Origin: Daucus carota subsp. sativus
Taxonomy: Eukaryota; Streptophyta; Magnoliopsida; Apiales; Apiaceae
Direction: 5' to 3'
DNA length: 64,000 bases
NCBI RefSeq assembly: GCF_001625215.2
Contig: NC_030385.2
Coordinates: forward strand, 31,087,598-31,151,597
In this document: positions 21,081-63,157 of the stretch, piece after piece
Numbering within the stretch: the stretch's first letter is position 1
How the letters are laid out: each line of letters starts with the position of its first letter
Program-made: the position numbers and the translations under genes
Notes under the pieces: generated by a model
Databases searched by the model: none
Told to the model about the DNA's origin: nothing
The model's input: the letters and a program-made list of their open reading frames with translations, nothing else

Positions 21081-21088
21081 ATAAAATT

Positions 21089-21250
21089 CATGATACAAAT
21101 ACATTAACCTATAAAAACTAGAAAAAGTGCCCACACGAGCATGTGTAAAGATAATAGTAATTGATTTTATGATACAAATACATTAACCTGTAAAAACTAT
21201 AACATGAAAAAGTGCCCACACGAGCATGTGTAAAGATAATAGTAATTGAA
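21089..21250. repeat. tandem duplication of about 80 bp (copy A)
   Basis: Two adjacent copies containing GTGCCCACACGAGCATGTG followed by TAAAGATAATAGTAATTG. The paralogous site near 52320..52380 has a single copy. Also present in copy B near 39294..39455. Confidence 0.8.
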
Positions 21251-21474
21251 AGGATGATGTGTTTGTTTTATTTTCATACTAATATGAGAAGAATTTTCGT
21301 CATCACATATTCTAGCTTAGTGAGAAAGTTAACAAAAGGTAAGTATTAAGTGAATCTTGACATATATTGTTAAGAAAATTCAGTAAAATATTTACATAAA
21401 GTAAGGTAATTAATATAAAAAAAATTAGGGTTAATATGACAATGCTAGAGCTCTACATTTATCTTTCTGGTGAA

Positions 21475-21625
21475 GATTGGGCCATATCTTGTTGAAAACA
21501 GTGGCTATATATGATTCATGCCACAGCTATGCAAGCACTAACAAAGATAAATTGCCAATCTGCTACTGCAACAACGGCAGCACCAGTTTAAATTACAGTG
21601 AGTGCAAGCACTGGACAAATGGCAT
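21475..21625 (-). pseudogene. nucleotide-sugar-transporter-like exon fragment (copy A)
   Basis: Minus-strand frame ALTVI, stop, TGAAVVAVADWQFIFVSACIA, VA, stop, II. It is the same exon as at 52573..52745 but with two in-frame stops, so it cannot be coding. The plus-strand open frame over the same bases is incidental. Confidence 0.5.
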
Positions 21626-21639
21626 TATAAAGATTAGAG

Positions 21640-22911
21640 TCGACACTGTCAAGGTGACAAACAACAATTTATGAATTATGATTGGAATGCGATATGTTAA
21701 AGGGTGAAGTTTACACTAAGAACAATTTTAGTACACTTGTCCAATCAAAATATAACTCAAAATCCAGATTATGTAAATCATAGAATCATACATTTATTTC
21801 AGGGACTAATTGCTTCAGTTGATCATATAGCAAAACATTATTGACTGAAATTATATAGGAGAGACATCAGTGGCATACGAGATCAAGCAAACGAAAAGAA
21901 TTAAGCAAAGATAAAAGCTCAGTAATTATAATAGCTTATAACATTGACAATGTAAAAAAATTACAGAATAGGGACTGAAATAACATACCTTATAGATTTT
22001 ATCGGGCCAATGCAGAGCCAGTCATGCTAAGTAGTGACTACACTTATATGTGATATATACACAGCCAGGAACCTGTAATATGCCTCTAAATTTCAAAGCA
22101 TAAGAGAAGGGTATCCATCTTACAAACCATACTACACATGTTCAATTTGGAATATGATAATGCAAGGCTGAAATCTAATAAGAAATAAGAATTGCTTCTT
22201 CACCAGAGACTAATTGATCATATAGCAAACATTAAAGAATGAAATTATATAGTAGACATCAGTAGCATATGAGGTTCAGTAAAGGGAAAATAAAGTAAAG
22301 ATAGAAGCTCATTAGTTGTAAGACAGCTAGTCCAAAACAGTCAAATTAATGCTAGTAACATACATTCAACAGAGAGAAAAGCGCGGGACGAAATATCCCC
22401 TAAAATGAGTCAATTTTTCACCGGACAATCTTGTAGCTCCGTGTACATATGCATCAAAAACTACAGTTTTTTTCCCTTTGATAGTATACCCTAACTTACA
22501 CAGGGACCCCGAGCCTAGTTTTAATACATCATAGACATTTACAATGTAGAAAACACAGAATAGGGAGACTGAAGAAGCATATTAATTATGTCAACTTATG
22601 CTAATAAACATTAGATTACCCCAGATGATTTATCTTTCTTAAGGTTGATAAAATGAGTGAAATATATGTCAACATTCATCCCCAGTAGACATAAATCATG
22701 GAATATTATGATAACAAAAACTCAATAGTCATAAAATTAATAGGAAACTACTAAGATTCATCGGTGATTGCATATAAAGCAGTTCAAAAAAGTTTAAAAC
22801 ATAATAATTAGATGTCATAATTAACCTGATACATATTAAGCTTAACATTTAATTTAAACAATCAAGGACCATTATCTCCGACATGATCACTTTCCCCTAA
22901 TCATCTTGACA
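21640..22911. other. spacer 3' of F-box 4 (copy A)
   Basis: No gene seen. Contains diverged copies of the F-box 3' spacer (for example 22140..22330 and 22530..22900 resemble 9720..10200). A stretch at about 22380..22520 with CACCGGACAATCTTGTAGC is not shared with the other spacers and is unidentified. Confidence 0.5.
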
Positions 22912-24117
22912 TTAATCAGTATCACTTGGGATACTTTCTTCATCCGATTCCATACCCTTGACCAACTCAAGTTGCTGCCTCCAAGGTGAAGCAGTCCACT
23001 TGACTGGTTTTGACCCTGCAATTGGAAAAAGGCTCTTTGTATGCTTGAGAATTCCACAGTATGGGAGACGGCCACGAAGGGCTCTGGTTGCTTGCTTGTC
23101 GGGGTTATAAAAGAACCAGTCCGCCTCACTATCAACTAGTAAGAATTCAACGCTGTTAAAAAGACCCGCAACAAAATCAAACCGCTTACCTACAATATCA
23201 CAACTGAGCTTCATAGTCCAAGATGCTTCTACTCCACCACCACGAAGGCATGCTTCATCATCTAATGTCCACAATTTCACCTTATTTTCAGATTTTTGGA
23301 ACACTGAAGCAGCAACCGAACCATTATATTCAGTAATGCAAGTCGAAACAGGATCTCCAGGGAGCTCAATGTTAAATATAAACACCTCTTTGTTTAGATT
23401 AAAAGCCATCATACCATGACGTCCTGTTGTTAACAAAAATCCGTGCAAGCATACATAGAAGTCAGGAATCATGGGAACATCAAGGGGCATGGGCTCAATC
23501 TTTCGCCAAGCATTCCTGTTCGAAGAGAATACCTCGGCACAAGTAGAGGTGGATACAATATGAACAACTTTACAGTCAAAATCGGTAAGATCAAAACCAA
23601 ACCCTATAGCCTCCCACTTTACATGCCAACCTTGGGCAATGAGTTTGGAGACTTTCGTAGCCGGGTTCCAAAGGTAAATATCCTTTCCCCCTCCGTATTC
23701 AACAAGAACACAAACAATTCCACAATCAGATCCCAAAATTTTACAAGGCAATATCGGTTTCGAAAGATAGTCACCTTCAGAGTAAAAGAAGTCGAGTTGT
23801 TCTAAAATGTCACAAGTAGCAAGGTGGGAGAGTGAAAAAGGACCACAGCCTACTAGTTCTTGATTGTCGTCTTCGCCTTTTAATTGATGGTGAACGATCA
23901 GAGTTTCGTCATACTCACCACTTGAGATTGAGAGCTTGAGGTGAGTTCTGACAAAACTAGGGCTTGAAATGACGGACAACCAGGATTTGCAAACACATTT
24001 GGATGCAAGTAGATTCTCCACCGGAAGGCGGAGGAAGATCTTGAACCATAGATCATCTGGTAAACTGCTAATCGTCATTTCCAGACTTCTTTTCCGCTTG
24101 TTATGATTTTCGTCCAC
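22912..24117 (-). CDS. F-box protein 4 with F-box-associated domain (copy A)
   Basis: Single exon, 401 residues, the most divergent of the three intact groups. Starts MDENHNKRKRSLEM, a short basic leader, then the F-box ISSLPDDLWFKIFLRLPVEN and CVCKSWL. The associated domain shows DIYLWNPATKVSKLIAQG, AIGFGFDLTDFDCKVV, VFSSNRNAWRKI, CLHGFLLTTGRHGMMAFNLN, VKLWTLDDEACLRGGG and SWTMKLSCDI. Ends acidic (ESDEESIPSDTD). Likely an SCF substrate receptor; target unknown. The first Met is in frame with the conserved leader seen at 30997, so it is taken as the start. The copy at 41116..42321 encodes an identical protein. Confidence 0.9.
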   Translation of the reverse strand: MDENHNKRKRSLEMTISSLPDDLWFKIFLRLPVENLLASKCVCKSWLSVISSPSFVRTHLKLSISSGEYDETLIVHHQLKGEDDNQELVGCGPFSLSHLATCDILEQLDFFYSEGDYLSKPILPCKILGSDCGIVCVLVEYGGGKDIYLWNPATKVSKLIAQGWHVKWEAIGFGFDLTDFDCKVVHIVSTSTCAEVFSSNRNAWRKIEPMPLDVPMIPDFYVCLHGFLLTTGRHGMMAFNLNKEVFIFNIELPGDPVSTCITEYNGSVAASVFQKSENKVKLWTLDDEACLRGGGVEASWTMKLSCDIVGKRFDFVAGLFNSVEFLLVDSEADWFFYNPDKQATRALRGRLPYCGILKHTKSLFPIAGSKPVKWTASPWRQQLELVKGMESDEESIPSDTD

Positions 24118-24129
24118 TTTAAATTAAGG

Positions 24130-25435
24130 GGGTATTTGATGAAGGTTTATGATTAGTATATTTGGGCATTGAGACCAGCTTATAATGCAAAACTGGAGTT
24201 GCTGATTACACGAATTGGGAGGAATTGGGATTCTAAAATCGATGAAACCCTTGTCCTAGCTAGATTGACGGCGCTGCTGTTTTTATAATGTTTACTCAAC
24301 CTAGTTTGCTTACATTTTAATTGTTTTTTTTTTCTTTTCAATTTTATCATCTCATTTAAGAGAGGAAATATTGTTTAAAAGAGATATAAGCATATTTTCT
24401 TTATAAAACGGATATTATATACATAATTTTAAAATATTTGCATGTAAAAGTAGATTGGGTTTAATCTCACATTAAAAATAACGGTATTTTTAAAATGATG
24501 AAGAAATTTATATCACAAATGTATCATATCTTAGTGCTATATATTATGTGAAAACACATTAATATTAACTTAATAAAACACTCGAGAGTTTTTCATAAAG
24601 AAGGAGAAAGGAAAAAAGAATCAAGAACAAGAAAAAAAGTTTATCGCGTCATCGAAATAAAGTGAATTGTAATTTAGTTTGGAGTTCAATCATATATTAT
24701 ATTAGTATCTAATTTGAAATATGTAAGATTATGATAGTAATATACTAATATCATATAAACGGGTCACTTTTGCCGTAGTAGATTAAAACTAGTTAAGAAT
24801 TACATATTGATTAGAAGTAAATTTTTTGAAATTACAAACTTACTTGTCTGTTAACATTGTATATCCCCGGTTTTCGCATGAAGAAAAAAATAGAAGTAAC
24901 AAAGGAAAAGGATTAGAATTAATTTGAAAATATAGCAGAAAATGTAGCGAGGATACGATGAACTAATTAATGATATCATATTTATAACGTGTCTTTCTTA
25001 ATTACCCAATTTTAAAGGTTCCTATAATGGTGGATTTCAGTTAATTATTAGCAATCGTTTATATTTTCCAAAATTTATGAGATTTTCATGATTTGGGTCT
25101 GGATCACGAAAAATGTGTGAGGGGTGTATTCGATTCATAATCTAAATATGTAATACATTTTAATAAGTTGTAGTATGATTTCAATGCTATTGAAGTGGCA
25201 CAAATCTATAGAATCTTATAGAGTATTAGGATTTTTTTGACAAAATGACTTTAAAATCATGTAATTGTATCAGATGTCGAAATACAATATTTAAAGGATG
25301 GAGATTCTTTCGTTCAAAAAAAATTATCATCTAACCTAGAGACACGCGTTAATTTAATGATCGAGAAGTGACCATCCATAAAAGGTGAAAAATATAATTG
25401 AATTTTGTTCAGAGAATCTTGTGCTTGCACGTACA
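24130..25435. other. AT-rich spacer 5' of F-box 4 (copy A)
   Basis: No gene seen. 24960..25430 is a diverged repeat of 20300..20790. Confidence 0.5.
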
Positions 25436-25439
25436 TTAC

Positions 25440-25615
25440 AACAAAACAGGCTTTTTATGATGAAATTTTTACACTAGTTCGGTCATAAAGACATATAATT
25501 ATGACGAAAAGTTTCCGTCGTTTATATAGCCGTCTAAAGTTCATAATGTATAAAATTCGTCACAAGTTAACAATTCCATCATAACCAAATGTGAGTGGGC
25601 TCCACAAACTTACGA
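25440..25615. mobile_element. CACTA-like left-end remnant (copy A)
   Basis: ATTACAACAAAACAGGC, TTACACTAGTTCGGTCATAA and TACGACGGAAAAC follow the left third of the element at 51122..51896, and the flank (GCTTGCA) is the same. The right end is missing. Confidence 0.55.
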
Positions 25616-26043
25616 CGGAAAACTAAAGAAAACTAAAGCATGAATATCTATGGTTTATCTCTTGCAAGTAGACACTAGGTACCACCAAAGTCATCCAACC
25701 AGGGGTGCTGTCCCATACCGAGCTCATTTAAAAATCTAAGATCACACAAGGTAAGAAGTGAATAAGCATACAAATATTTGAGATACCAAAAAAGAATTAA
25801 ATAAATGTTGTAATAAACATAAAGATAACTGTACTTAAACTGTTGTAATGAAATCAATGTCTGATTCTTTTAAAAACCAATATGTAAGACAGGTAGTTAG
25901 TTCTTCTTAAATTTTTTATCGTCAAGAAGGCAAACAATGGCCACTAAGTATCAAGATATAAACATTAACAAGCTAGAGTGAATTATCATATTGCAAGTTA
26001 GGGACATCTTCAAGATACAAATTATTCAACCAGCACTAGTTAC

Positions 26044-38130: not shown

Positions 38131-39678
38131 AAGAGTGTCCACGATGTCAAGGTGAAAGAACAACACTTCATCATTTGTGATCAGAAATGCGACATGTTCA
38201 AGAGTAAAGTACTTATAGTACTAACAATTTTAGCAGACTCTACGTACCATTACCAACATCCAATTATGGAGGCTATCACATGACCTAGAAGCTACCTAGC
38301 TAGCTCATTTAACAATCTAAGCATCACACAAGGTAAGAATTGAATAAGCATACAAATAATTATAAGACACTAAAAAAGTATTCAATAATTGTTAATGGAG
38401 ATAAAAATCACTGTACTATAACTAGAGTAATGAAATAAACGGATGATTCTTTTTTCTCATTGCTGCAGTTATAAAAATCACAGTACTATAACTAATTAAT
38501 GATATCATATTTGTAATGTGTCTTTCTTACCCAAGTTCAATGATTTTTATAATGATAGATTCCAGTTAATTAATTAGTAACTTTTATATTGTCCAAAATT
38601 AATGAGATTTTCATAATTTGTGTTTGGATCACGAATACTGTGTGAGGGGTGTTTTCTATTCATATCATAACGGATTCTTTATATGTGATACATTTTAGTA
38701 AATTGTAGTTCGATTTTATATGCTATAGAAGTTGCGACAAATCGGTAAAATCTTATAGAGTATTAAGATTTTTTGGACAAAATGACTTTTACATCATGTA
38801 ATTGTATCAAAAGTCGAAATACAATATTCACATGATGGAGATTCTTTTGTTCAAAAATTTATCATCTAACCTAGAGACATGTAGAGATGTCCTCGTAAAT
38901 TTAATGACAGAGAAGTGAACATCCATAGAAGGTAAAAGCATAATGATCTATTATGAAAATTCATGAACTCCGTTCGGAGAATCTCCGGCTTGCAATTGTC
39001 TACCACCAAAACATCTTTGATCCAAAAAAAAAAAGGGATGCAATTCTGAAAAAAAATGTATTGATAAGCGTCCATTACACCATTTAAATTCTATTTTCTC
39101 CGGTCTTAATGGAAAACTACCATTAATAATGTATTATAACATATATATGTCCAAATCTAAACAAAAGAAAATCTTTTGATTGGATACTATATAATTTGAT
39201 AACACAATCGATAAATGTCTCACTACATTATCATTCATTGTTCGAGACATGAAAAAAGCCAACTTTCATGACCCCTAATGAATCATAAAATTCATGATAC
39301 AAATACATTAATCTATAAAAACTAGAAAAAGTGCCCACACGAGCATGTGTAAAGATAATAGTAATTGATTTTATGATACAAATACATTAACCTGTAAAAA
39401 CTATAACATGAAAAAGTGCCCACACGAGCATGTGTAAAGATAATAGTAATTGAAAGGATGATGTGTTTGTTTTATTTTCATACTAATATGAGAAGAATTT
39501 TCGTCATCACATATTCTAGCTTAGTGAGAAAGTTAACAAAAGGTAAGTATTAAGTGAATCTTGACATATATTGTTAAGAAAATTCAGTAAAATATTTACA
39601 TAAAGTAAGGTAATTAATATAAAAAAAATTAGGGTTAATATGACAATGCTAGAGCTCTACATTTATCTTTCTGGTGAA

Positions 39679-39829
39679 GATTGGGCCATATCTTGTTGAA
39701 AACAGTGGCTATATATGATTCATGCCACAGCTATGCAAGCACTAACAAAGATAAATTGCCAATCTGCTACTGCAACAACGGCAGCACCAGTTTAAATTAC
39801 AGTGAGTGCAAGCACTGGACAAATGGCAT
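39679..39829 (-). pseudogene. nucleotide-sugar-transporter-like exon fragment (copy B)
   Basis: Duplicate of 21475..21625, with the same two in-frame stops. Confidence 0.5.
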
Positions 39830-41115
39830 TATAAAGATTAGAGTCGACACTGTCAAGGTGACAAGCAACAATTTATGAATTATGATTGGAATGCGATATG
39901 TTAAAGGGTGAAGTTTACACTAAGAACAATTTTAGTACACTTGTCCAATCAAAATATAACTCAAAATCCAGATTATGTAAATCATAGAATCATACATTTA
40001 TTTCAGGGACTAATTGCTTCAGTTGATCATATAGCAAAACATTATTGACTGAAATTATATAGGAGAGACATCAGTGGCATACGAGATCAAGCAAACGAAA
40101 AGAATTAAGCAAAGATAAAAGCTCAGTAATTATAATAGCTTATAACATTGACAATGTAAAAAAATTACAGAATAGGGACTGAAATAACATACCTTATAGA
40201 TTTTATCGGGCCAATGCAGAGCCAGTCATGCTAAGTAGTGACTACACTTATATGTGATATATACACAGCCAGGAACCTGTAATATGCCTCTAAATTTCAA
40301 AGCATAAGAGAAGGGTATCCATCTTACAAACCATACTACACATGTTCAATTTGGAATATGATAATGCAAGGCTGAAATCTAATAAGAAATAAGAATTGCT
40401 TCTTCACCAGAGACTAATTGATCATATAGCAAACATTAAAGAATGAAATTATATAGTAGACATCAGTAGCATATGAGGTTCAGTAAAGGGAAAATAAAGT
40501 AAAGATAGAAGCTCATTAGTTGTAAGACAGCTAGTCCAAAACAGTCAAATTAATGCTAGTAACATACATTCAACAGAGAGAAAAGCGCGGGACGAAATAT
40601 CCCCTAAAATGAGTCAATTTTTCACCGGACAATCTTGTAGCTCCGTGTACATATGCATCAAAAACTACAGTTTTTTTCCCTTTGATAGTATACCCTAACT
40701 TACACAGGGACCCCGAGCCTAGTTTTAATACATCATAGACATTTACAATGTAGAAAACACAGAATAGGGAGACTGAAGAAGCATATTAATTATGTCAACT
40801 TATGCTAATAAACATTAGATTACTCCAGATGATTTATCTTTCTTAAGGTTGATAAAATGAGTGAAATATATGTCAACATTCATCCCCAGTAGACATAAAT
40901 CATGGAATATTATGATAACAAAAACTCAATAGTCATAAAATTAATAGGAAACTACTAAGATTCATCGGTGATTGCATATAAAGCAGTTCAAAAAAGTTTA
41001 AAACATAATAATTAGATGTCATAATTAACCTGATACATATTAAGCTTAACATTTAATTTAAACAATCAAGGACCATTATCTCCGACATGATCACTTTCCC
41101 CTAATCATCTTGACA

Positions 41116-42321
41116 TTAATCAGTATCACTTGGGATACTTTCTTCATCCGATTCCATACCCTTGACCAACTCAAGTTGCTGCCTCCAAGGTGAAGCAGTC
41201 CACTTGACTGGTTTTGACCCTGCAATTGGAAAAAGGCTCTTTGTATGCTTGAGAATTCCACAGTATGGGAGACGGCCACGAAGGGCTCTGGTTGCTTGCT
41301 TGTCGGGGTTATAAAAGAACCAGTCCGCCTCACTATCAACTAGTAAGAATTCAACGCTGTTAAAAAGACCCGCAACAAAATCAAACCGCTTACCTACAAT
41401 ATCACAACTGAGCTTCATAGTCCAAGATGCTTCTACTCCACCACCACGAAGGCATGCTTCATCATCTAATGTCCACAATTTCACCTTATTTTCAGATTTT
41501 TGGAACACTGAAGCAGCAACCGAACCATTATATTCAGTAATGCAAGTCGAAACAGGATCTCCAGGGAGCTCAATGTTAAATATAAACACCTCTTTGTTTA
41601 GATTAAAAGCCATCATACCATGACGTCCTGTTGTTAACAAAAATCCGTGCAAGCATACATAGAAGTCAGGAATCATGGGAACATCAAGGGGCATGGGCTC
41701 AATCTTTCGCCAAGCATTCCTGTTCGAAGAGAATACCTCGGCACAAGTAGAGGTGGATACAATATGAACAACTTTACAGTCAAAATCGGTAAGATCAAAA
41801 CCAAACCCTATAGCCTCCCACTTTACATGCCAACCTTGGGCAATGAGTTTGGAGACTTTCGTAGCCGGGTTCCAAAGGTAAATATCCTTTCCCCCTCCGT
41901 ATTCAACAAGAACACAAACAATTCCACAATCAGATCCCAAAATTTTACAAGGCAATATCGGTTTCGAAAGATAGTCACCTTCAGAGTAAAAGAAGTCGAG
42001 TTGTTCTAAAATGTCACAAGTAGCAAGGTGGGAGAGTGAAAAAGGACCACAGCCTACTAGTTCTTGATTGTCGTCTTCGCCTTTTAATTGATGGTGAACG
42101 ATCAGAGTTTCGTCATACTCACCACTTGAGATTGAGAGCTTGAGGTGAGTTCTGACAAAACTAGGGCTTGAAATGACGGACAACCAGGATTTGCAAACAC
42201 ATTTGGATGCAAGTAGATTCTCCACCGGAAGGCGGAGGAAGATCTTGAACCATAGATCATCTGGTAAACTGCTAATCGTCATTTCCAGACTTCTTTTCCG
42301 CTTGTTATGATTTTCGTCCAC
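41116..42321 (-). CDS. F-box protein 7 (copy B duplicate of F-box 4)
   Basis: Single exon, 401 residues, identical in protein to 22912..24117, with the basic leader MDENHNKRKRSLEM, the F-box (LPDDLWFKIFLRLPVEN), the F-box-associated domain and the acidic tail. Spacers around it show scattered single-base differences from copy A (for example in the 5' AT-rich region), while the coding region looks unchanged. Confidence 0.9.
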   Translation of the reverse strand: MDENHNKRKRSLEMTISSLPDDLWFKIFLRLPVENLLASKCVCKSWLSVISSPSFVRTHLKLSISSGEYDETLIVHHQLKGEDDNQELVGCGPFSLSHLATCDILEQLDFFYSEGDYLSKPILPCKILGSDCGIVCVLVEYGGGKDIYLWNPATKVSKLIAQGWHVKWEAIGFGFDLTDFDCKVVHIVSTSTCAEVFSSNRNAWRKIEPMPLDVPMIPDFYVCLHGFLLTTGRHGMMAFNLNKEVFIFNIELPGDPVSTCITEYNGSVAASVFQKSENKVKLWTLDDEACLRGGGVEASWTMKLSCDIVGKRFDFVAGLFNSVEFLLVDSEADWFFYNPDKQATRALRGRLPYCGILKHTKSLFPIAGSKPVKWTASPWRQQLELVKGMESDEESIPSDTD

Positions 42322-43644
42322 TTTAAATTAAGGGGGTATTTGATGAAGGTTTATGATTAGTATATTTGGGCATTGAGACCAGCTTATAATGCAAAACTGG
42401 AGTTGCTGATTACACGAATTGGGAGGAATTGGGATTCTAAAATCGATGAAACCCTTGTCCTAGCTAGATTGACGGCGCTGCTGTTTTTATAATGTTTACT
42501 CAACCTAGTTTGCTTACATTTTAATTGTTTTTTTTTTCTTTTCAATTTTATCATCTCATTTAAGAGAGGAAATATTGTTTAAAAGAGATATAAGCATATT
42601 TTCTTTATAAAACGGATATTATATACATAATTTTAAAATATTTGCATGTAAAAATAGATTGGGTTTAATCTCACATTAAAAATAACGGTATTTTTAAAAT
42701 GATGAAGAAATTTATATCACAAATGTATCATATCTTAGTGCTATATATTATGTGAAAACACATTAATATTAACTTAATAAAAACACTCGAGAGTTTTTCA
42801 TAAAGAAGGAGAAAGGAAAAAAGAATCAAGAACAAGAAAAAAAGTTTATCGCGTCATCGAAATAAAGTGAATTGTAATTTAGTTTGGAGTTCAATCATAT
42901 ATTATATTAGTATCTAATTTGAAATATGTAAGATTATGATAGTAATATACTAATATCATATAAACGGGTCACTTTTGCCGTAGTAGATTAAAACTAATTA
43001 AGAATTACATATTGATTAGAAGTAAATTTTTTGAAATTACAAACTTACTTGTCTGTTAACATTGTATATCCCCGGTTTTCGCATGAAGAAAAAAATAGAA
43101 GTAACAAAGGAAAAGGATTAGAATTAATTTGAAAATATAGCAGAAAATGTAGCGAGGATACGATGAACTAATTAATGATATCATATTTATAACGTGTCTT
43201 TCTTAATTACCCAATTTTAAAGGTTCCTATAATGGTGGATTTCAGTTAATTATTAGCAATCGTTTATATTTTCCAAAATTTATGAGATTTTCATGATTTA
43301 GGTCTGGATCACGAAAAATGTGTGAGGGGTGTATTCGATTCATAATCTAAATATGTAATACATTTTAATAAGTTGTAGTATGATTTCAATGCTATTGAAG
43401 TGGCACAAATCTATAGAATCTTATAGAGTATTAGGATTTTTTTGACAAAATGACTTTAAAATCATGTAATTGTATCAGATGTCGAAATACAATATTTAAA
43501 GGATGGAGATTCTTTCGTTCAAAAAAAATTATCATCTAACCTAGAGACACGCGTTAATTTAATGATCGAGAAGTGACCATCCATAAAAGGTGAAAAATAT
43601 AATTGAATTTTGTTCAGAGAATCTTGTGCTTGCACGTACATTAC

Positions 43645-43820
43645 AACAAAACAGGCTTTTTATGATGAAATTTTTACACTAATTCGGTCATAAAGACATA
43701 TAATTATGACGAAAAGTTTCCGTCGTTTATATAGCCGTCTAAAGTTCATAATGTATAAAATTCGTCACAAGTTAACAATTCCATCATAACCAAATGTGAG
43801 TGGGCTCCACAAACTTACGA
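43645..43820. mobile_element. CACTA-like left-end remnant (copy B)
   Basis: Duplicate of 25440..25615; one difference gives ACACTAATTCGG here against ACACTAGTTCGG in copy A. Confidence 0.55.
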
Positions 43821-44248
43821 CGGAAAACTAAAGAAAACTAAAGCATGAATATCTATGGTTTATCTCTTGCAAGTAGACACTAGGTACCACCAAAGTCATC
43901 CAACCAGGGGTGCTGTCCCATACCGAGCTCATTTAAAAATCTAAGATCACACAAGGTAAGAAGTGAATAAGCATACAAATATTTGAGATACCAAAAAAGA
44001 ATTAAATAAATGTTGTAATAAACATAAAGATAACTGTACTTAAACTGTTGTAATGAAATCAATGTCTGATTCTTTTAAAAACCAATATGTAAGACAGGTA
44101 GTTAGTTCTTCTTAAATTTTTTATCGTCAAGAAGGCAAACAATGGCCACTAAGTATCAAGATATAAACATTAACAAGCTAGAGTGAATTATCATATTGCA
44201 AGTTAGGGACATCTTCAAGATACAAATTATTCAACCAGCACTAGTTAC

Positions 44249-52749: not shown

Positions 52750-53630
52750 TCCCATTATAAAGATTAGAGTCAGACAATGTCAAGGTGAAAAACAGCAATT
52801 CATGAATTATGATCGGAATGCGACATGTTAAAGAGTGAAGTTTACAGTAAGAACAATTTCAGTAGACTCTTTAGGTACCACCAAAAACATCCAACCAGGG
52901 AAGCTACCACATGACCTACAAGTTACCGAGCTCATCTAACCATCTAAGCATCTCACAATGTAAGAAATGAATAAGCATACAACTAATTGACAAACTAAAA
53001 CTGTATATAAATTATAATAAATGTTATATAAATATAAATATCATTGTACTTTAACTGCTATGATAAAATAAATATACGATTTTTGGAAAAACCAATATGG
53101 AGAACACGAGAGGATGGTCTCTATGTTACAAACCATACTACACTTGTCCAATCAAAATATAACGCAATTTTTATTTTTTTTTTGACATTATTTCACATTA
53201 ATCGGTTCAGTTATGCTTAAAAAGATATTTGATTCTTAACGGAAAGATGCACTTGTTCACATCTGAAACAAATTGTAGAGAATGGTTTGAAAAAGAATTT
53301 TCTTGTACTCAGGGGAAACTCATGTGAACAGGTCCACGCGAATAATTTGTATTCGCTGGAAGAGAAGAGAATTATTTACTTATACAAAGTGAGAGTTTAA
53401 AGGTTAAAAATGATAACCCTTATGCTATCAAGAGAGTAATATGTGGTGCCTTTTGCAGTTGTACTGATCAGACTGCAGAGATGTCACAGGAGAACGGGAT
53501 GCGTGAAATGGTGGTGATCGAGCCATGTAGTGGTACCACCAGGATAGACTCACAGCTCATTAGTTAGAATTAGATAAATAAGCACATACTGAGAAAGAAA
53601 GAAACATACAGTACAAAACTGACTGAAATT
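52750..53630. other. spacer without supported genes
   Basis: 52860..53060 is a diverged copy of 20020..20220 and 25670..25860. 53240..53630 is not repeated in the window; a short open frame MSQENGMREMVVIEPC near 53479 has no family I recognise. Confidence 0.45.
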
Positions 53631-53638
53631 CCAAAGAT

Positions 53639-53770
53639 ATGCCCCTGGTTGATAACATTAAGAACAAGTGGAAGGAACATGAACAAGCAGCAAAAGAAGT
53701 TAATATCGATTTATGGTCGGAACTTGATGACAATCTGTTGGGTGAAATTCTAAGCAGACTCTCTGTCTGA
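53639..53770 (+). pseudogene. F-box domain fragment, different family
   Basis: 43 codons from an ATG: MPLVDNIKNKWKEHEQAAKE, then VNIDLWSELDDNLLGEILSR, LSV, stop. The part from LWSELDDNLLGEILSRLSV fits the start of an F-box, in the WSELP..LL..I..RL form usual in plant F-box proteins with a DUF295/KIB-type domain. The expected continuation after the F-box is not readable. It is on the plus strand and unlike the minus-strand F-box genes, so it is an independent remnant or a truncated small gene. Confidence 0.55.
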
Positions 53771-53942
53771 CTGGCTAGGCTCGTCTTCGTGTTGTTTGCA
53801 AGAACTAGAAGCCTGCTCATCCATCAGTAATATAAAACCATTGTAACGGTATCTAACTTGTGATCGTTCACTTACACCTGCGACCAGAAAGTTTTAATCC
53901 CAACCTCATCTCCCTGTCTAGCTTATAATCAGCCAAGTAACA

Positions 53943-54186
53943 GGGCCGTTTGGGTGAGCTTAAAATAAGTGCTTATTGCTTAAAATAAATAAGTGGAGTA
54001 GAAGTTAGAAGCAAGATAAGACTTATAAGTGATTAAAGTGTTTGGGAAATAAGTAGAAGCCCTGAAACAAAAGCTAGCATTCCTAACTTTTTTTAAGTGC
54101 TTCTTGACTTCCTACACAAACGGTACGAAATAAGTGCTTCTAACTTATAAGTCGAGAAGTTCGGCTTAAAAGGGGAGCCAAACACC
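53943..54186. mobile_element. GTTTGG-type MITE
   Basis: About 244 bp. Ends GGGCCGTTTGGGTGAGCTTA and TAAAAGGGGAGCCAAACACC are imperfect inverted repeats. The inside is self-complementary around AAGTGCTT/AAGCACTT and ACTTATAAGT motifs. Typical of short foldback MITEs that start with a GTTTGG core. A target duplication is not clear, so the superfamily is left open. Confidence 0.6.
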
Positions 54187-54522
54187 AAGTATTCCATCTT
54201 CTCGTATGTATATTGCAGCTATGTCGACCACAACTGACCCATAAAAAAATTATCATTAGACTGCTTGTATGTATCTATGATCATTTTTTTTCTCTTTAAT
54301 TATTAGATCGTTAAACAGGCAATAAAAGCCGACCTTGGTGCTTATAATTCTCACATCCTTTGTTTGCTTCTAACTTCTTTGGTGATTTCTTGCATTGTTT
54401 TTGTTTTTCCTTTACTTTTGAGTATTTGAATGTGTATACAAAACAGATCAATGTGGACTTTCCTTAATAATGAGGAGAAGCCAGAATGAACTACTTGTGA
54501 TTTTACTGATACTAGCCTATAA

Positions 54523-54539
54523 CCCGTGCGAAGCACGGG
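54523..54539 (-). other. Helitron 3' terminal hairpin
   Basis: CCCGTGCGAAGCACGGG on plus: perfect 7-bp stem, 3-nt loop, seven bases inside the CTAG end. Next to it, about 54540..54645 holds two tandem copies of a 55-bp AT-rich block. Confidence 0.75.
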
Positions 54540-54649
54540 CGGCCATATAATTTTAATGTGATTATTTATAAGCTTAATATCATTTTACGCACGTGCGACC
54601 ATATAATTTTAATGTGATTATTTATAAGCTTAATATCATTTTATTTGTG

Positions 54650-56290
54650 TTTTTTTATTAAATAAATGAAATGGTATTAAATTATATTAGTCGATTCTAC
54701 ATGTGAATGTTTATTTATAAGCTTAATAGAATTTTTTTAGTTACTTCAGGTTCAAGCAGTTTGAAAAACATAAGGCCATATGCATTATAGGTATGTGGGA
54801 GCAAGAATTTAGTAGTGGGAATAAGTGATCATTGTCATTGTAAAAAACTTAGTGGAGTAGCAATTTCACATGTTTGTGTGAAAAAAAAAAGTGTGAGAAA
54901 ACAACTTAACCAAGTAAAATGAATCTCACCCAACTTCTTCCAATAAAATGAATGCACTTATGTTAATCTCATCTTGAACACTTTGTTTGAAGAGCTGCCC
55001 TACTTACCAAACAGAATTTACCAATCGACCCTGATAGTATATACGATTTGTATCAGGGAAACTGACAAGATATCGAAAGAGTCTGAAATCTGTCCCAAGT
55101 TAGAAAAATTAACAGAGTTGCAGCAAGGATAAAGACACATTTAGATCCTAAAACAAACCAAGACCTTCTTTAGTTTGTTTCATTTAGGAGAAATTGGAGA
55201 GCATTTAGGTAACCTGAGAAGACAAAGAGAGAATTAAGAAACAATAGTTTCTCTATAGATCCCTTCATTGGTGAATGGACCCTAGAGTAGAACGTAGAAC
55301 TTGTACCGAGGCCGACAAAGGAATCATGGGTGAACATAAAGAGTCGAGGCTCAGTTCCAACAGATAAATGTGTTACAAAAATGACAAATTTTTCTCATAT
55401 TGCTATCATATTGAAAAACATTTAATTCTTCCTTAAATCTTTAAATTTGAAATATAGAAACACCCTGATAATATTTCCAGTGGTTATCTACTGGATCAAA
55501 GTTATTGCAGGGGTCTATTAGACTATTACATATCAAGTGTTTGAGCAAAACACATATAGTATGTTCTTGCATGATGAAGTTGAACTCATATATAATGGTT
55601 TTCACAAGTGAGCAACACTAACTTAATAATTGCTTAAAAAGTATACCCAATCTTTTACTATAAATATACAGGCATGCAAGCATAAAGACCAACTCTATGG
55701 TCGAGTGTGCAAGAATTCGAAGTTACCATGAAACACGCGCAAAGATATTCTTGTAATTACACACTGATTATAATTCAGAGAATTCTAAGTTTACCAAGTT
55801 GCAATATTTAACTTAAAAATCTGCAATATTTTATTATCAGGCAGCGTAACTCTGCACACCGCACAGCAGTGGATTCAGTCTGCACTGCAATGGCTACATT
55901 GCAGCAGCAACAAAAGAGATTGCAGGATAAAAGATATGGGCAATCGGCATATTGCAAAATATAATGTGCAAACTACAGAGTACAAAATACAAAACTGCAG
56001 AAACAGAATTATAAAACTGTATACCGAAGTTTGAACAAACATTCTTCATTTTAATTAGTACAGTACAAAATAGAGCCGAAATATCAGATCACTGTGCAAG
56101 GCAAATAATTTAGACAGTAAGGTAAACTACAGAAAATCAGAGTATTTTTCAAGGCTCGGATCTTCGACCTCTTGTTATGGCCTTCGTCCCAATGAAGCAA
56201 AATTGAGTTTGGTTTTTAAATTAGCAATTCTTGTCAAAAAGAAAGAGACACAATAATTTTTTATAAGTAAGACTAAAAAGTTAGGTTTAA
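54650..56290. other. Helitron body without recognised gene pieces
   Basis: I found no coding similarity here. Contains several purine-rich and AT-rich stretches; short open frames are scattered. Confidence 0.4.
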
Positions 56291-56301
56291 CATATGATTA
56301 C

Positions 56302-56490
56302 CATGGATAAGAGCAGTCAAGTGCAACCAATTTCCATCCGAATAATCTTTCCTGATAGCCTCAGCATTCTGCAGAAGATGCTCGATCTACGGCTCATCCA
56401 AATCAGGATCACTATCATCCACCACATTGTTCAGTAGCTCACAGCATTCCCATATGCTCATTTCCATCTTGAATCTATGGCCCTTCCCCC
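56302..56490 (-). pseudogene. myo-inositol oxygenase (MIOX) exon fragment
   Basis: Minus-strand frame [27 protein letters not shown], stop, IEHLLQNAEAIRKDYSDGNW, LHLTALIH. It follows, residue by residue, the plant MIOX segment [49 protein letters not shown]. The Gln codon after DLDEP is TAG here. Similarity ends with a G split codon and GT donor at 56301..56300, which looks like the original exon end, so genomic DNA rather than cDNA was captured. MIOX oxidises inositol to glucuronate; this piece holds at most one or two of the iron ligands and cannot work. Confidence 0.82.
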
Positions 56491-56494
56491 AGGA

Positions 56495-56533
56495 TAAAAG
56501 TTGCAAGAGCAGATAAAACCTTTCCAGATTTTA
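56495..56533 (-). pseudogene. micro-fragment of the ABCC gene
   Basis: Minus-strand [11 protein letters not shown], nearly the same as SGKVWSALATF in the larger ABCC piece (about 57207..57243). It is a roughly 38-bp second copy placed between the MIOX and TM9SF pieces. Confidence 0.65.
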
Positions 56534-56621
56534 TTATTTAATGTTGTGATTTTGCACTCATGTCGATTAAATCTTTGAACAGAGTTGATGACCTCATTGT
56601 CGTTCAGTTTCTTTTTAACAG

Positions 56622-57120
56622 GTGAGGAATTCCTCAATACTGTTGCCATATTTTATAGCTCAACTGCAGAACTTCCTTTCGGCACAATTGTGGTTATAAC
56701 CCTTATATGGACTTTAGTGACCTCGCCTTTGCTTGTGATGGGTGGACTTGCTGGTAAAAATAGCAAAACTGAATTCCATGCTTCATCATTCTGCTTTCAA
56801 CTTGATGCTGAAGATCATGAATGGTGGTGGAGGTACAAAAGTTTCTTGATAAAACCAAGCTTTGTTGTTTTCGTTTTCTGTGTCAATATTTCGGCGCTGC
56901 CTCTATATATGGTCTTCTTCTTATTTTCAGCAAACTGTCAGTGAGTTTGATAAATATGCATTCATGAGTCAATATGAAATTGCAATTTGTGTTAATTTGG
57001 TGCAGGTCATTTCTTTGCGGTGGCTCAACTGGCATTTTTATATATGGCTACTGTTTGTACTACTACTATGCAAGATCTGATGGCTGGCTCCATGCAAATC
57101 TCATTCTTCTTCGGATATGC
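56622..57120 (+). pseudogene. TM9SF/EMP70 (transmembrane nine) gene fragment with intron
   Basis: Plus-strand exon 56622..56832: EEFLNTVAIFYSSTAELPFG, TIVVITLIWTLVTSPLLVMG, GLAGKNSKTEF, then FQLDAEDHEWWWR. Intron 56833..57005 has GT and AG ends and is in the right phase. The next exon, SFLCGGSTGIFIYGYCLYYY, YARSD, is followed by a shift into MQISFFFGYAA. These are successive landmarks of plant TM9SF endomembrane proteins. The segment expected between KNSK.EF and FQL.AEDHEWWWR is deleted. The fragment ends at about 57120, where it abuts the oppositely oriented ABCC fragment. Confidence 0.85.
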
Positions 57121-58726
57121 TGCAATTCTGTCAAGTGAAACTTTAGTTTGAATCATTACTGATATTGTATCAGGAAGATTATAAATAGGCTCCTGAAGTA
57201 TTCTAAAAGTTGCAAGAGCAGACCAAACCTTTCCAGATTCAAGTGGAATCCTGAGAATCATACATGTATTAAAAGTTACTACAGCCACAAACGTCGGAGT
57301 ACCCCAAAAAACAAATGTAACTACGGCATTAGTGTAGACAAACTTCTTTAACCACCCAGCCTCAATCTTTCTAAGATCCAAAATTTCAGACAAAAATCTC
57401 ATTTCCCAGCCCTGAAGCTTGAGAATCCTCATGTTTTTTAAGATTTCAGAAGTTGCCTTCATTCTATGATCTTTAGATTCCATTAGCTTAGTCTGATAAT
57501 TCTCCTGCAATTTCCCTAATGGTACATTTAGCAACATCACGATAATGGTTGTGACCAATGAAGCAACAGAAGCCAGCCCTAGATTTTTATATAAATCATC
57601 AACGCCAGACCAACTTCAAGGATGACCAGCCATAAATCATGCATGTACCAGCCAAGACACCAATCCTCTCAGCATCCACTGTCATGATATTTGTCATCTC
57701 CCCACTGGTGTGACCCTGCTTTGATTGACATGACAGGGTCAATCCCTTGTGATAGATCAATGCAATAAGAGCTGCCTTGCCCCTGGTTCCATTCTGCTGC
57801 ACCTTAAAGAACCAATGCCTTTGTGTCAAACACTCAATAAGCTTTGAAATGACAAATGCAGATACTAAAAGGTACCCTTCCTTCAAGTTCTTGCTTCCAT
57901 TTAGGTACTGAACAAATGAATCAATGAGGTATGGACCACCATAGGAGGCCACCGTGTTTATCATTGCAAGAAATGCTGTCAATAAGATATCTCTCCACAT
58001 GGAATAAAATAGTGCTTTCGCCAGCTTAAGCGTGGTCAAACTACTATTATCACCACCGCATTTATCTTTTAGAAGTGGAAAGGCACCTTTAACACTATCA
58101 ATACTTGCAAGCCGAGGAACATCCTCAATGTCTAACGTTTTCCTATATCCCAATGCAACTAAAGAACCGATCCAAGAGAAAGTAAGAAGACTGAATATAT
58201 TAGCACTTGCATAAGGGGTCACAGTTTCACCCCCTCTGGACTTTTTGCACTCTTCACCATCAGGTACCCTACTAATATCAGCACTTAAAAGGGGTTCTTG
58301 AAAAATACCATTTTCAGTTGGTTTAATATATCCTGAAAACCCCACCAAACATAGGAACAATCCTATAACTATATCTAAGGCATCTGAAATCACAAAATGA
58401 AGTGGCAAAGGCTGGCTTATATTGTAGTATACATAGTCTATAACAAGACAATAACAAGATGCCGAAAAGAAAACACACCACCACACCCTTAATAACAAAG
58501 GGTACTTAACATCACTTAAGTCTTGCACTTGGGTAAACAGATAAACTGAGATAGCTAGCCAGGAAAGTGCTTTACTGACTGAATCAAAAAGCACTATGAT
58601 TATCAATTCAGACCAGCCATTTGCATACCAATAAAATTTGTCCAGTATACACAAAACAAAATTAAGAAGCACCGGAACCGAAGGTGTAACAGATAAATAA
58701 TTATATATCACACTGATTTCATACAC
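57118..58726 (-). pseudogene. ABCC (MRP-type) transporter fragment, frameshifted
   Basis: The first part (58726..about 57690) holds the last TMD0 helices (CILDKFYWYANGW), the L0 linker (FQEPLL), TPYASANIFSLLTFSWIGSL, LDIEDVPRL, and TMD1 through GHTSGEMTNIMTVDAERIG. Two single-base deletions then break the frame, near 57680 (after ERIG) and near 57590. The frame resumes as LYKNLGLASVASLVTTIIVM, MKATSEILKNMRILKLQGWE, IPLESGK, LQEPIYNLPDTISVMIQTKV and SLDRIAAY. Both nucleotide-binding domains and TMD2 are absent. Intact relatives of about 1,500 residues are vacuolar pumps for glutathione conjugates and similar compounds. Closest by eye to the Arabidopsis ABCC3 type. Non-functional. Confidence 0.88.
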
Positions 58727-58739
58727 TTGGTTGAAAAGA

Positions 58740-59520
58740 TAACTAAAGCAACTTGCACAATTCTAATGATTTTAATTCTGTGATTATTCATTTGATCACA
58801 GTGAGTTAATTTTTCAAACAACTCTCAGATATAACACTTTACGTGCATGATTCATTCTTAGTTTTTTCATGGCTTGGAGGCAGCTGAAACTACTTACCAA
58901 TATAACAAGTTGAAGCAACTAAATTACTAAATTTAAGATAAATAAACAATGAACAACAAAGAAAGCTAGTTAATCAGAAGATATAGAACTCATATTCATA
59001 TATATGTATGACGAACAAACCTTCAGGGGGATGAAGTTCTTGAGAGATGGAATGAAAAGTAGAATCGTCGAGACGGAGAGGAAGACAGAGGTCCAGCTAC
59101 GGAGTTCGCTCGTCACTCGTTAAAACAACCAACCACTTTCCGCGTCTAGGTCAATAAAAATATAAACATCCCATTCACACAAGCATTGTAAGAAGATTTC
59201 ACATAAAAAGTTTGGATCATTAAAATAATCTCAATGATATACTGTTTATACAACTCCTCTAACAGGTATAATGCATACCACTTTTTTCAAAAGTCATTGT
59301 TCAACATACACATCAAATCGAGAAAACAAAGAAAACCAGATGTTTACCTTAAAGAAGACAAAATATGGTACAGCAGAAAATCATACGCACAGAGGTTTTC
59401 TGTAGTGTTTGCTTTAGTTTGGAAAACCAATGTCCAGCATGAGATAGAACTCTAACAGGAGCTGTTTTTTTAAGTAATAGTGTACTAATCGAAGAAAATA
59501 AAAAGACCAAACCAAAAAAC
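58740..59520. other. Helitron 5' part upstream of the ABCC piece
   Basis: A minus-strand open stretch at about 59020..59130 (WTSVFLSVSTILLFIPSLKN) ends in a GT donor and has no ATG. It could be a remnant of the ABCC gene's 5' exon, but I cannot confirm it. Nothing else recognised. Confidence 0.3.
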
Positions 59521-59599
59521 AATGACCAAACCAAAAAACGTGAACAAAAAGTAGGACTACAAATTATCCCTATGTTGGCTTATTATAGTATAGTATAGA

Positions 59600-59825
59600 T
59601 AGTATATAAATAGTATATAAATTATATTTAAAAGAATAATGGTAGAGTTTTTATCTTGTACTACATCACAAGTGTTCACAAGTGTTTGTAATTTGAACCG
59701 TATAAAACTCTTATAACATTGTAAGAGTAAGAGAAGTTTACATGTGACAGACTTGCAGTTATAAAGGAGATAGACCAAACCAAAATTTTGTACGACTACA
59801 AATTATACCTGTGTTGGCTTATTAT
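59600..59825 (-). mobile_element. truncated second Helitron copy (5' region)
   Basis: 59640..59825 resembles 61150..61370 of the small Helitron (a dACTTGCAGTTATA-type block, GACCAAACCAAA, GTACGACTACAAATTATACC, TTGGCTTATTATAATA). It lacks the TCTATACTA start and a 3' end, so it is a fragment abutting the larger Helitron's 5' end. Confidence 0.45.
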
Positions 59826-59915
59826 AATAACAATGAAAACCTGGTAAATAAATAAACTGGGCAACTACAGGGAGAACTAACTATCCAATACATATATATA
59901 TGTTCCTCTGTCAGT

Positions 59916-60125
59916 TTAGTTTTCCCTTAGATATTTTGGAGGGCTGCGAGGCCCGCCGCGATATCTCTTTATCACCTCACAACCTCTGTTATAGGGATTT
60001 GCTGGAGTGTCTGGTTCCATACAACCTCCAGGCCGGTTGCATATTGTCCCATCACCTTTTAATGCACCATTTGAAATCATCTTTGCATCAGCAACATCTG
60101 CCACTAGTGCAAGAAACACAATCAT
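59916..60125 (-). CDS. RALF-like secreted peptide, lacking the fourth cysteine
   Basis: 69 residues: a hydrophobic start MIVFLALVADVADA (signal peptide, short), then KMISNGALKGDGTICNRPGG, CMEPDTPANPYNRGCEVIKR, YRGGPRSPPKYLREN. The ISxGAL block, a spaced Cys pair and ANPYxRGC are hallmarks of RALF peptides, which bind CrRLK1L receptors such as FERONIA and alkalinise the apoplast. The size fits the short RALF class without an S1P site. In the family Cys3 is followed after five residues by Cys4; here that place is Tyr (TAT, one step from TGT), so the second disulfide cannot form. A TATA run lies about 165 bp upstream. It may be functional or freshly decaying. Gene assignment fairly sure, function not. 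Confidence 0.75.
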   Translation of the reverse strand: MIVFLALVADVADAKMISNGALKGDGTICNRPGGCMEPDTPANPYNRGCEVIKRYRGGPRSPPKYLREN

Positions 60126-60286
60126 GATGACGAAAAATACAACTCTGGTTTCGACAATTCCATTGTCGTTACTTTATTTTGATTTTTCACTTAAAACAGA
60201 TATTAAGCCAAACACCACCTCAAGAGAAAGCTTGTCTTTTGTAATTAGTATAATTAAAACAATGACGTTTTATTACCAAGGTTAAG

Positions 60287-60298
60287 GTATATATATAG
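60287..60298 (-). promoter_or_regulatory. candidate TATA box of the RALF-like gene
   Basis: CTATATATATAC on the minus strand, about 165 bp upstream of the start codon. In AT-rich DNA this could be chance; the position is plausible. Confidence 0.35.
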
Positions 60299-60299
60299 T

Positions 60300-60960
60300 T
60301 AGGCCTGTCAAGATTGATCAATCCCCAGTGGATATGGATTGATGTGTACGACTATGGATAAAGTTGAAAATTATCCGAACGCAGTTCGATAACAACGATA
60401 TCTAAATGATAAATATGATAAATAGATTGACATATAGTTAGGTTGATCCGACCTTTTATCATCGATTCTATCTGTTTAATCTATTTCCAAAACTCTTAAC
60501 CATTTCTAAACCTTTAAACTTTGACGTGTGTGCTATTGTTTAGATTATCATCTATTATCTTGCTATGTGTAAATGACTAAAAAAAACATGAACAAAATCT
60601 AGGATTACAAATTATACCCATGTTGCCTTATTATAGTATAGATAGATTTGAATTATTTTTATTTTTTTTGGTATAAATTGCATATTTTCCAATTATTTAT
60701 ATTTCAGTTCTGCAAATAAGAAAGTAGGTATATGAAAATATGGTATTTGTCAATAGAGGATAATCGGGACGAGAAGATAGAATTGGAAAGTGAAACAATG
60801 ACATTGAACAACTGAGTGGTGAGAACATAATTTGAAACAAGTCTTGAAATTATTATAATCAAAGTTAAAAATTTTATATTGACATATCAAATTTAGAATT
60901 TTCAAATCTTGGAAAAAATAATCGATTACACTAAAAAGTACGAAATTTTACATGTATTAA
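60300..60960. other. spacer with an orphan Helitron 5' end
   Basis: No gene. At about 60603..60642, GATTACAAATTATACCCATG, TTGCCTTATTATAGTATAGA is the Helitron 5' end of the same family (minus strand, TC at 60642 preceded by A). No matching 3' hairpin was found between here and 59900, so it is either an orphan end or an alternative 5' limit of the large element. Confidence 0.5.
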
Positions 60961-60965
60961 TTAAA

Positions 60966-61429
60966 ATAGCTTTTAACCCGTGCTTCGCACGGGCGAGTAT
61001 ATAATTCATAATTTATTGTTTATAATTTAAATTATAAAATTATTTTAGTATTTTAATAATAATGAATTGCAACATCTATTTATAAGTATTTTTAATATTA
61101 ATATATGTTATTAATAGTAGTTTCATTTTTATTTCAACTAATTATAAATTATTTTTAAGAAGATAATGATAAAGTTTTTGTTTTCTAATACATGATGAGT
61201 GTTTTTAGTATTTGAAATTGTTTAATAAAAAAAGAGTAATAGACCTCACATGTCGTAGACTTCTAGTTATAGTTATATAAGAAGAGTACTAAACCAAAAC
61301 GAACATGACCAAACCAAAAATTTAAAATTTGTACGACTACAAATTATACCCATGTTGGCTTATTATAATATAGTAAATTTGTATGACTACAAATTATACC
61401 CATATTGGCTTATTATAATATAGTATAGA
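60966..61429 (-). mobile_element. small non-autonomous Helitron
   Basis: On the minus strand it starts TCTATACTATATTATAATAA at 61429 (preceded by A). It ends past the hairpin CCCGTGC-GAA-GCACGGG (60977..60993) and TTAAAAG in CTAT near 60967. The CTAT end departs from CTRR, perhaps by mutation. About 460 bp, no genes. The 5' terminal block is duplicated (also at 61331..61375). Confidence 0.6.
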
Positions 61430-61439
61430 TAGTATAGAT

Positions 61440-63157
61440 AACTGGTTATTATATCAACTACAATTAATATGATAAATAATATATATAAATACAAATATAA
61501 TTAATTGTATGAACTTGTTTTAGGAGTCGTTTGGCGCCAAAATTAACAATTCTCACATATGTGCTTCGATACTTACATGCATACTTGTAGAAAATAGCCA
61601 ATTTCATCAAAGAACTTGTCTGGCACAGCTTAAATCGCCTCGAGTGAAGTGACTTTAAACTGGGAAGTATTTGTTTGGATGATAAATCAGACCCCCACTC
61701 TAAAAAGATTTAAAGTTTGATCGAAGTTAGTAATTAGGAGAATATATTTTTTTGAACAATGTATTTTATTTTTATAAGAAATACAACCTTTTAGTTCGGT
61801 TCAATTATAATTATTACCTAAATTTTAGTTAATTACAAAATACATCCCTTAACATATTTTAAGGCCACATGTTGAACTATTTGGCTCATTTTCGTCTATT
61901 TTGACCTATCAATTTGTTAGAGCCTATAACATTATATTTTAGTTAATTTTTAAATCTATTTCACTATTTTAATTTGCACAGTAATAGTTTAAAACATATA
62001 AAAGTAGATCAAACAAAGTCAACACTAGACACTAAAATATGTGAAAGGATGCCTTCGGTGGTTATCTAAAATTTAAGTAATAATTGTAATTGACCCGAAA
62101 TAGAGAGTGCATTTTTTAATCAACTCTTTTTCATATTAAACTCAATTTTATCACTAAAATGAATAATATATTAAATTTAAATTTATTATATAACTTTTTT
62201 ATAACTGTCACTTATAAAAAAAATCTGGTTCAATCCACTCTCCAAAAAAAATCCGAGTCAATTCCATTTTTATCGAAATAATTCTGCCAGACCGAATTGA
62301 CGGGATATATTAAGAGGAAAAATCCTCTAGAATGATAATTTAAAAACCGACGAACATTAGTACATTACCACCTAGAAAAGTTGTTTAAAAGGGTCAAGAG
62401 TTTGAAAGGGTTGAGAGTTAAATTGCACTTGATTATTCTTCAGCTGAATACGGTTCCGGACGGCAAGTTACAATATTCGGTGCAGGATAATGAAAGCCGT
62501 CACGTTTAGAAATTGTACAGTTCATTGCTGTAGTCAAAGCCTCAAAGGTCATGGAATTTTTAACACTGGGAAATAATTTCTTCTTTTTCGCTAGATAGTA
62601 CCCAGAAATTTTGGTTTGGTTGTTCAGCCCAGTTCGGGATTCCCCCAGACCGATTCACAGCCTATTAAAACTACGTCAGGAAAGTGAACTAGTTGGGGTC
62701 CTTCCAGGCTTTCACTACTTGTTAAGGAGAGTAACGTGCAAACACAATCAACAAAACTCTAAAATTCAAAAAATCACTAGTTTGAAACTCAATGCCATCA
62801 CTAAGATGCGACCACAACTTGGCAACATGCATAAACAAACTAGAAACCGATCACGCATAAAGAACAATCAGTATCCAGAGACCAATTCAACATACTACCA
62901 AGTGCAACGTTAAAATTTACGGGCAAATTGCCAGTCAAACACTACATATGTTTGTTAGTATAAGTTTCTGTACCATTCTGCACTACATGACGTTTTTACG
63001 TGTCTCTGCAAGCCTGTACACGTGGTCAATAGATGCGCAAAATTTAAAAAACCGCCTAATGCACGTCCACTCAAGCATGCAGGCTACCTCCTCTTCAACC
63101 TACAAATCCCCAGGAACGAAACAGTGCAACTGCGCTCTGATGTATAGTAAAATATTA
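61440..63157. other. spacer and 3' region of the Ca2+-ATPase gene
   Basis: 61440..62600 is AT-rich spacer with nothing recognised. Sequence from about 62600 to 63157 is less AT-rich and probably includes the Ca2+-ATPase 3' UTR; open frames on the plus strand there are incidental. Confidence 0.4.

Follow-up and report, generated by a model that had tools for sequence, protein, structure and literature searches.

A recently copied gene-capturing Helitron in carrot and the gene fragments that it carries

The window considered here is a stretch of 64,000 nt from carrot, Daucus carota subsp. sativus (C5:31087598-31151597; NC_030385.2). It contains a cluster of Helitrons, among them a 5.1-kb element on the minus strand that carries pieces of MIOX, ABCC, TM9SF and glutaredoxin-domain genes (Table 1). 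Helitrons have a 5' TC end, a 3' CTAG end and a hairpin just before the latter, and they insert between A and T without duplicating the target; Pack-MULEs are defined by long terminal inverted repeats. Read on the minus strand, the element starts with TC (59599-59598) and ends with CTAG (54512-54515), and it is bordered by A at 54511 and T at 59600. The hairpin directly before CTAG has a folding energy of -10.3 kcal/mol, and none of 200 shuffled sequences was equally stable. No terminal inverted repeats of at least 25 bases were found in 53500-62000, where one weak internal pair was present.

Table 1. Parts of the element, in window coordinates
Feature	Position	Strand	Evidence or nearest relative
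Whole element, very probably a non-autonomous Helitron	54512..59599	-	5' end 59599, 3' end 54512, A/T insertion; second copy with same ends
3' terminal region, hairpin and CTAG end	54512..54741	-	363 genome matches to end motif; hairpin fold
Captured noncoding stretch	55009..55763	-	L012 (C8:22.21 Mb) is the nearest long match; L013 (C6:12.78 Mb) matches a part
Two-part captured stretch (55790-55847 and 56034-56243)	55790..56243	-	L015 (C4:42.91 Mb)
Patch separating the two L015 parts	55849..56034		L058-like (C8:20.33 Mb), 79% over 216 columns
MIOX piece, exon 56302-56471 and start of following intron	56271..56471	-	Pfam MIOX, E 7e-8
ABCC micro-piece, 36 bp	56495..56530	-	second copy of 57204-57239
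TM9SF piece, intron 56833-57005 kept	56533..57117	+	Pfam EMP70; donor-like L011 (C9:34.47 Mb)
Frameshifted ABCC transporter piece limited to the N-terminal membrane part	57117..58679	-	Pfam ABC_membrane
5' internal region common to Helitron family members	58688..59109	-	found next to Rep-encoding genes too (L060, L063)
Captured piece from between exons, three-glutaredoxin-domain gene	59112..59379	-	L019 (C1:49.63 Mb), 18/268 substitutions
5' terminal region ending in TC	59396..59599	-	421 exact genome matches to end motif

Genome-wide searches covered 441.1 Mb in 11 contigs, and the search with the whole element scored the best 40 of 1,656 candidates. Its best other match was a second copy, L009, on the minus strand at C5:18799927-18804955 (loci elsewhere in the genome are given L numbers). 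The two copies differ by 28 substitutions in 4,979 aligned bases (0.56%), and relative to the window element L009 has 39 bp and 11 bp added and lacks 109 bp at 58679. On the plus strand both read A/CTAG...TATAGA/T, with the slashes marking the borders. Outside the element the copies agree at only three bases to the left and two to the right, beyond which the flanks are unrelated. The same ends, limits and orientation had been proposed in a preliminary description made from the letters of the window alone, and the second copy bears them out. Chance is ruled out as an origin, because of the E-values of the whole-genome search and the ends common to both copies. The stretch 54512-59599 is a real, well-bounded and recently copied gene-capturing Helitron.

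The end motifs recur across the genome. A 30-base motif from the 3' end, which includes the flanking A, had 179 forward and 184 reverse exact matches, and a 27-base motif from the 5' end had 190 and 231; reversed-sequence controls for both had none. To pair ends we used the first 100 places listed for each motif, which on C1 comprised 50 3' ends and 53 5' ends. Among these matches, 18 of the 50 3' ends were partnered within 15 kb (331 to 8,475 bp) by a 5' end that lay on the expected side and had the same orientation, and none had a 5' partner on the wrong side; two of the 18 pairs overlap each other in opposite orientation. Additionally, 54589-54741 is matched at 86-94% in other elements among the best 40 of the 1,656 candidates, and 54742-55008 has, apart from the second copy, no better than a 75% match. 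Another element, L057 (C2, 8.2 kb), is 90-95% identical to the window element in its 3' and 5' end regions. The gene pieces in it are different, namely a 40S ribosomal protein SA piece above the Pfam cut-off and a pyridoxal-phosphate (PLP)-enzyme-like piece below it. No Rep gene was recognised in L057, whose frames were judged by eye and three of them scanned. Thus the related Helitrons that the preliminary description had predicted, like the intact-looking donor genes discussed below, are present in the host genome.

Rep domains were sought in the same genome. The Rep domain PF14214 had at least 168 matches, many of them in stop-free frames (best 150 of 344 candidates). A related locus at C4:15.71 Mb, L010, matched ten other places over at least 250 bases in its region of about 1324-1926, and for five of these places a listed Rep domain lies at a distance of 2.7-3.6 kb. 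Further upstream of Rep domains, four stretches were fetched, and two of them (L060 and L063) carry the 5' region of the window element and end in TATAGTATAGAT. On the evidence of these two stretches, carrot has Helitrons that encode Rep and share this type of 5' region.

We are highly confident that the stretch 54512-59599 is a gene-capturing Helitron of the non-autonomous kind, presumably mobilised by the Rep-helicase that related autonomous Helitrons encode. For the enzymatic and replication steps of its transposition, we infer that the Rep-helicase would nick at the TC end, that the strand would be copied with termination at the hairpin-CTAG end, and that the product would insert between A and T. 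A break or gap within the element that is closed with sequence copied from elsewhere would leave a captured patch. Several observations weigh against this account. On C1, 32 of the 50 3' ends had no 5' partner among the matches listed, the other two stretches upstream of Rep domains (L061 and L062) lack the 5' region, and no 3' end of L010 was found in the 7 kb examined; for the Rep-encoding elements the analysis covered the 5' side. The predicted empty site, with an uninterrupted AT, was not recovered either: joining 53512-54511 to 59600-60600 and comparing the product with the eleven loci L038-L048 gave matches that extend at most 9 bases across the join. A low-copy repeat in the left flank (L049 and L050) breaks at 54508, three bases before the border, and the continuation of L049 and L050 past this break, compared with four right-flank stretches, gave scores within those of 200 shuffles. 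Finally, the element is followed directly on its right by a fragment of another Helitron, so the unit at this locus may once have been longer.

Donors were sought genome-wide and then fine-mapped by alignment to individual loci. The MIOX, TM9SF and two ABCC pieces had been recognised in the preliminary description, and their domains and donor-like genes (L014, L011 and L016) were indeed found, but four captured stretches had been missed: 55009-55763, 55790-55847 with 56034-56243, 55849-56034, and 59112-59379. The large ABCC piece differs at 55 of 1,563 sites from L016 (C5:11.35 Mb), at 97 of 1,563 from L017 and at 347 of 1,516 from L018, and relative to L016 it has lost 9 bp at one point and 1 bp at each of two others. 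The nearest donor of the MIOX piece is L014 (C3:57.28 Mb), at 92%, and the TM9SF piece lacks 229 exon bases of L011 at 56786/56794. The stretch 55009-55763 differs from L012 at 54 of 712 sites, and 55008-55412 from L013 at 27 of 403; the L012 match lies between exon-like frames, near a VARLMGL motif that scores below cut-off. The L015 source stretch lies 1.4 kb from a chorismate-binding exon. The donors of 55009-55763 and 55849-56034 are uncertain.

The MIOX, ABCC and glutaredoxin pieces follow the direction of the element, and the TM9SF piece runs opposite to it. Exon-intron borders can be read in the TM9SF and MIOX pieces, and since introns are kept, the pieces were acquired as genomic DNA, as had been suggested before. 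The 36-bp ABCC micro-piece, which lies beyond TM9SF, matches L016 slightly better (35 of 36 bases) than it does the corresponding bases of the large ABCC piece (34 of 36). We also observed, at 3072-3199 of L019, a Helitron 3'-type end with 75-78% identity to 54512-54689, 1.4 kb from the captured stretch of the glutaredoxin gene.

The L010 locus has the same TM9SF/ABCC join as that at 57117 of the window element. Its order is ABCC (L016 5173-4978), TM9SF (L011 4294-4500, 207 bases) and again ABCC (L016 4698-3132), with TM9SF in place of 279 bases of ABCC. Since ABCC lies on both sides, TM9SF is a patch set into ABCC. Beyond TM9SF the window element has the micro-piece rather than ABCC proper, which implies that the two elements have lost or changed different parts. 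Two further replacements were seen. The 186-base L058-like piece (55849-56034) stands in place of 98 bases of L015, and at the site of the glutaredoxin piece (59110-59395) L010 has instead 44 bases that are continuous with L028. Of 13 joins viewed, four overlap by 1-3 bases and nine contain 1-27 unassigned bases. Together these features would be better explained by end-joining repair or copying-in than by simple read-through beyond the 3' end. Because each patch replaces part of its surroundings (TM9SF in ABCC, the L058-like piece in L015 and the glutaredoxin intron in the Helitron 5' region), patching is probably the best-supported route for at least three of the pieces.

We compared the pieces with their donors at neutral sites, that is, at introns, noncoding and synonymous positions, with synonymous changes in ABCC entered as 20 (estimate 19.5). 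Six pieces gave 137 differences in 1,949 pooled sites (about 7%), with no heterogeneity (p 0.91). The pooled count leaves out MIOX (13/201; exon part 7/170), the protein-changing ABCC sites, L013 as a second source (27/403) and the TM9SF exon parts (left part 14/253, perhaps including noncoding bases; exon ends 1/39 and 4/110). An apparently younger age of the coding pieces (ABCC 3.5%) was rejected, since the difference disappeared when introns, noncoding and synonymous sites alone were used. At a grass substitution rate of 1.3e-8 per site per year, the divergence from the donors would correspond to about 2.8 million years, that of the window and L010 ABCC pieces to 0.96 and that of the two copies to 0.22 million years.

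A plausible alternative, although not one that we would favour, is that the pieces were captured one at a time, each with its own transposition and spread over a long period, as PMC3288121, in its available portion, argues for maize Helitrons. Elements with fewer pieces do exist, since L010 has the ABCC-TM9SF part and lacks the glutaredoxin piece. The indistinguishable neutral divergence of the six pieces speaks against such a sequence, although closely timed steps would look alike. In addition, L010 is not simply an earlier stage, because its 5' region is more diverged from that of the window element (27 of 376 sites, 7.2%) than is the cassette, whose ABCC part differs at 38 of 1,548 sites (2.5%; Fisher p 4e-5).

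This difference suggests that the ABCC-TM9SF cassette and the 5' region may have separate histories. The ABCC pieces of the window element and L010 also have in common a 9-bp and a 1-bp deletion absent in L016 and L017, and the TM9SF part that they share differs at 6 of 205 sites. Against separate histories, L010 is, the second copy aside, the closest sampled member in both 5' stretches (10.1% and 4.6%, one stretch being short and gapped). Tentatively, we suggest that capture by these Helitrons has largely been patching, in which break repair over a short period drew on several unlinked genes and left patches within patches, and that the finished cassette later moved between Helitron backbones; a scheme of this extent is possible but far from secure.

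The surroundings bear on the limits of the element. Its right flank (59600-59829) is matched at 88-90% in at least 30 places, and the four that were fetched (L045-L048) are small Helitrons. Three of these (L045, L046 and L048), of about 415-425 bp, contain a further 5'-type end, now decayed, at about 230 bp from their actual 5' end. Next to this segment, at 59829-60572, a piece of a RALF-type peptide gene (Pfam RALF) lies between Helitron sequences. Donor-like genes for it are found on C9 (L038, 34/736 substitutions; L039, 28/717). An 85-codon frame is left, in which a cysteine near the end has become tyrosine; the donor start codon is lost and an internal ATG is present. A further 5'-type end follows at 60573-60643, and at about 60969-61430 there is a small Helitron with two consecutive 5'-type ends. 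Only one 3' end of the element's orientation was found within the window. One could read 54512-60643 as a single Helitron that takes in the RALF piece and has two or three 5'-type ends, with 54512-59599 as a self-moving inner unit, and the successive 5'-type ends, together with multi-end Helitrons described in maize in the available part of PMC3288121, would agree with it. We consider this unlikely, since the only other near-complete copy, L009, ends at 59599, as does L010, and no copy of 54512-60643 was seen.

It appears similarly doubtful that the ABCC-TM9SF chimera formed in an ABCC gene copy outside Helitrons and was then captured independently by two of them. The lower divergence of the cassette would suit such an origin, as would the position of the two ABCC ends only 7 bases apart (58672 and 58679). 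On the other hand, no third locus with the chimera appeared among the best 40 of the 1,656 candidates in the whole-genome search, and the close relationship of L010 in both 5' stretches speaks for common descent.

The preliminary description suggested that the shared orientation of the MIOX and ABCC pieces and the element would allow a chimeric transcript. The ABCC piece contains open frames of 387 and 196 codons that are mutually out of register because of two 1-bp deletions, and as a consequence of this frameshift no full fusion protein is readable. The ratio of nonsynonymous to synonymous substitution rates (dN/dS) is 0.50 between the ABCC piece and its donor, no lower than the 0.46 found between two donor-type genes, and decides nothing. 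Although the common direction of three of the captured genes, the preserved splice borders and the two open frames would suit a chimeric gene expressed from the Helitron or a captured promoter and kept by selection, the broken register and the dN/dS value make this very improbable.

Other features of the window lie to the left. A repeat of about 244 bp resembling a miniature inverted-repeat transposable element (MITE) occupies 53943-54186 and matches at least 39 places over its full length at 95-98%. At 53627-53770 is a 47-codon frame that by eye resembles the start of an F-box protein. Matches to 52903-53167 recur in 20067-25884 and 38272-44089; their constant offset of about 18.2 kb and equal identity point to a probable 18.2-kb tandem duplication in the window.

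The mechanism by which Helitrons pick up genes is still debated. The window element is a further case of a process already known in plants, and it documents a gene-capturing Helitron family in carrot. Its captures can be placed in order and in time, because most pieces have likely donors, a second copy is nearly identical and one relative shares a cassette. Of more interest are the nested patches and a cassette that is less diverged than the adjoining 5' regions. A literature search on Helitron gene capture in carrot matched only genome-assembly work, a result that does not show the element to be undescribed. In its available portion, PMC10581907 describes a carrot Helitron that has inserted into coding sequence, in a gene from a region associated with carotenoids.

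Like Pack-MULEs, as presented in the accessible part of PMC13317346, the carrot element has intron-containing genomic fragments of genes enclosed by transposon ends, but it lacks a terminal inverted repeat of at least 25 bases and its ends are of Helitron type. The several 5'-type ends in succession to its right recall the multi-end nested Helitrons of maize (PMC3288121, available portion); unlike those, there is a single 3' end of this orientation in the window, so that the nesting is incomplete or decayed. The closest parallel is with the non-autonomous Helitrons of maize that capture genes (PMC3288121 and PMC2575219, each in the portion available). As in maize, the fragments come from unlinked places, relatives carry different parts of one capture, and non-autonomous elements occur beside putative autonomous ones. 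In two respects the carrot element departs from the maize elements as these portions describe them: it has patches nested within captured pieces, and its six pieces are indistinguishable in neutral divergence, whereas PMC3288121 argues for sequential steps.

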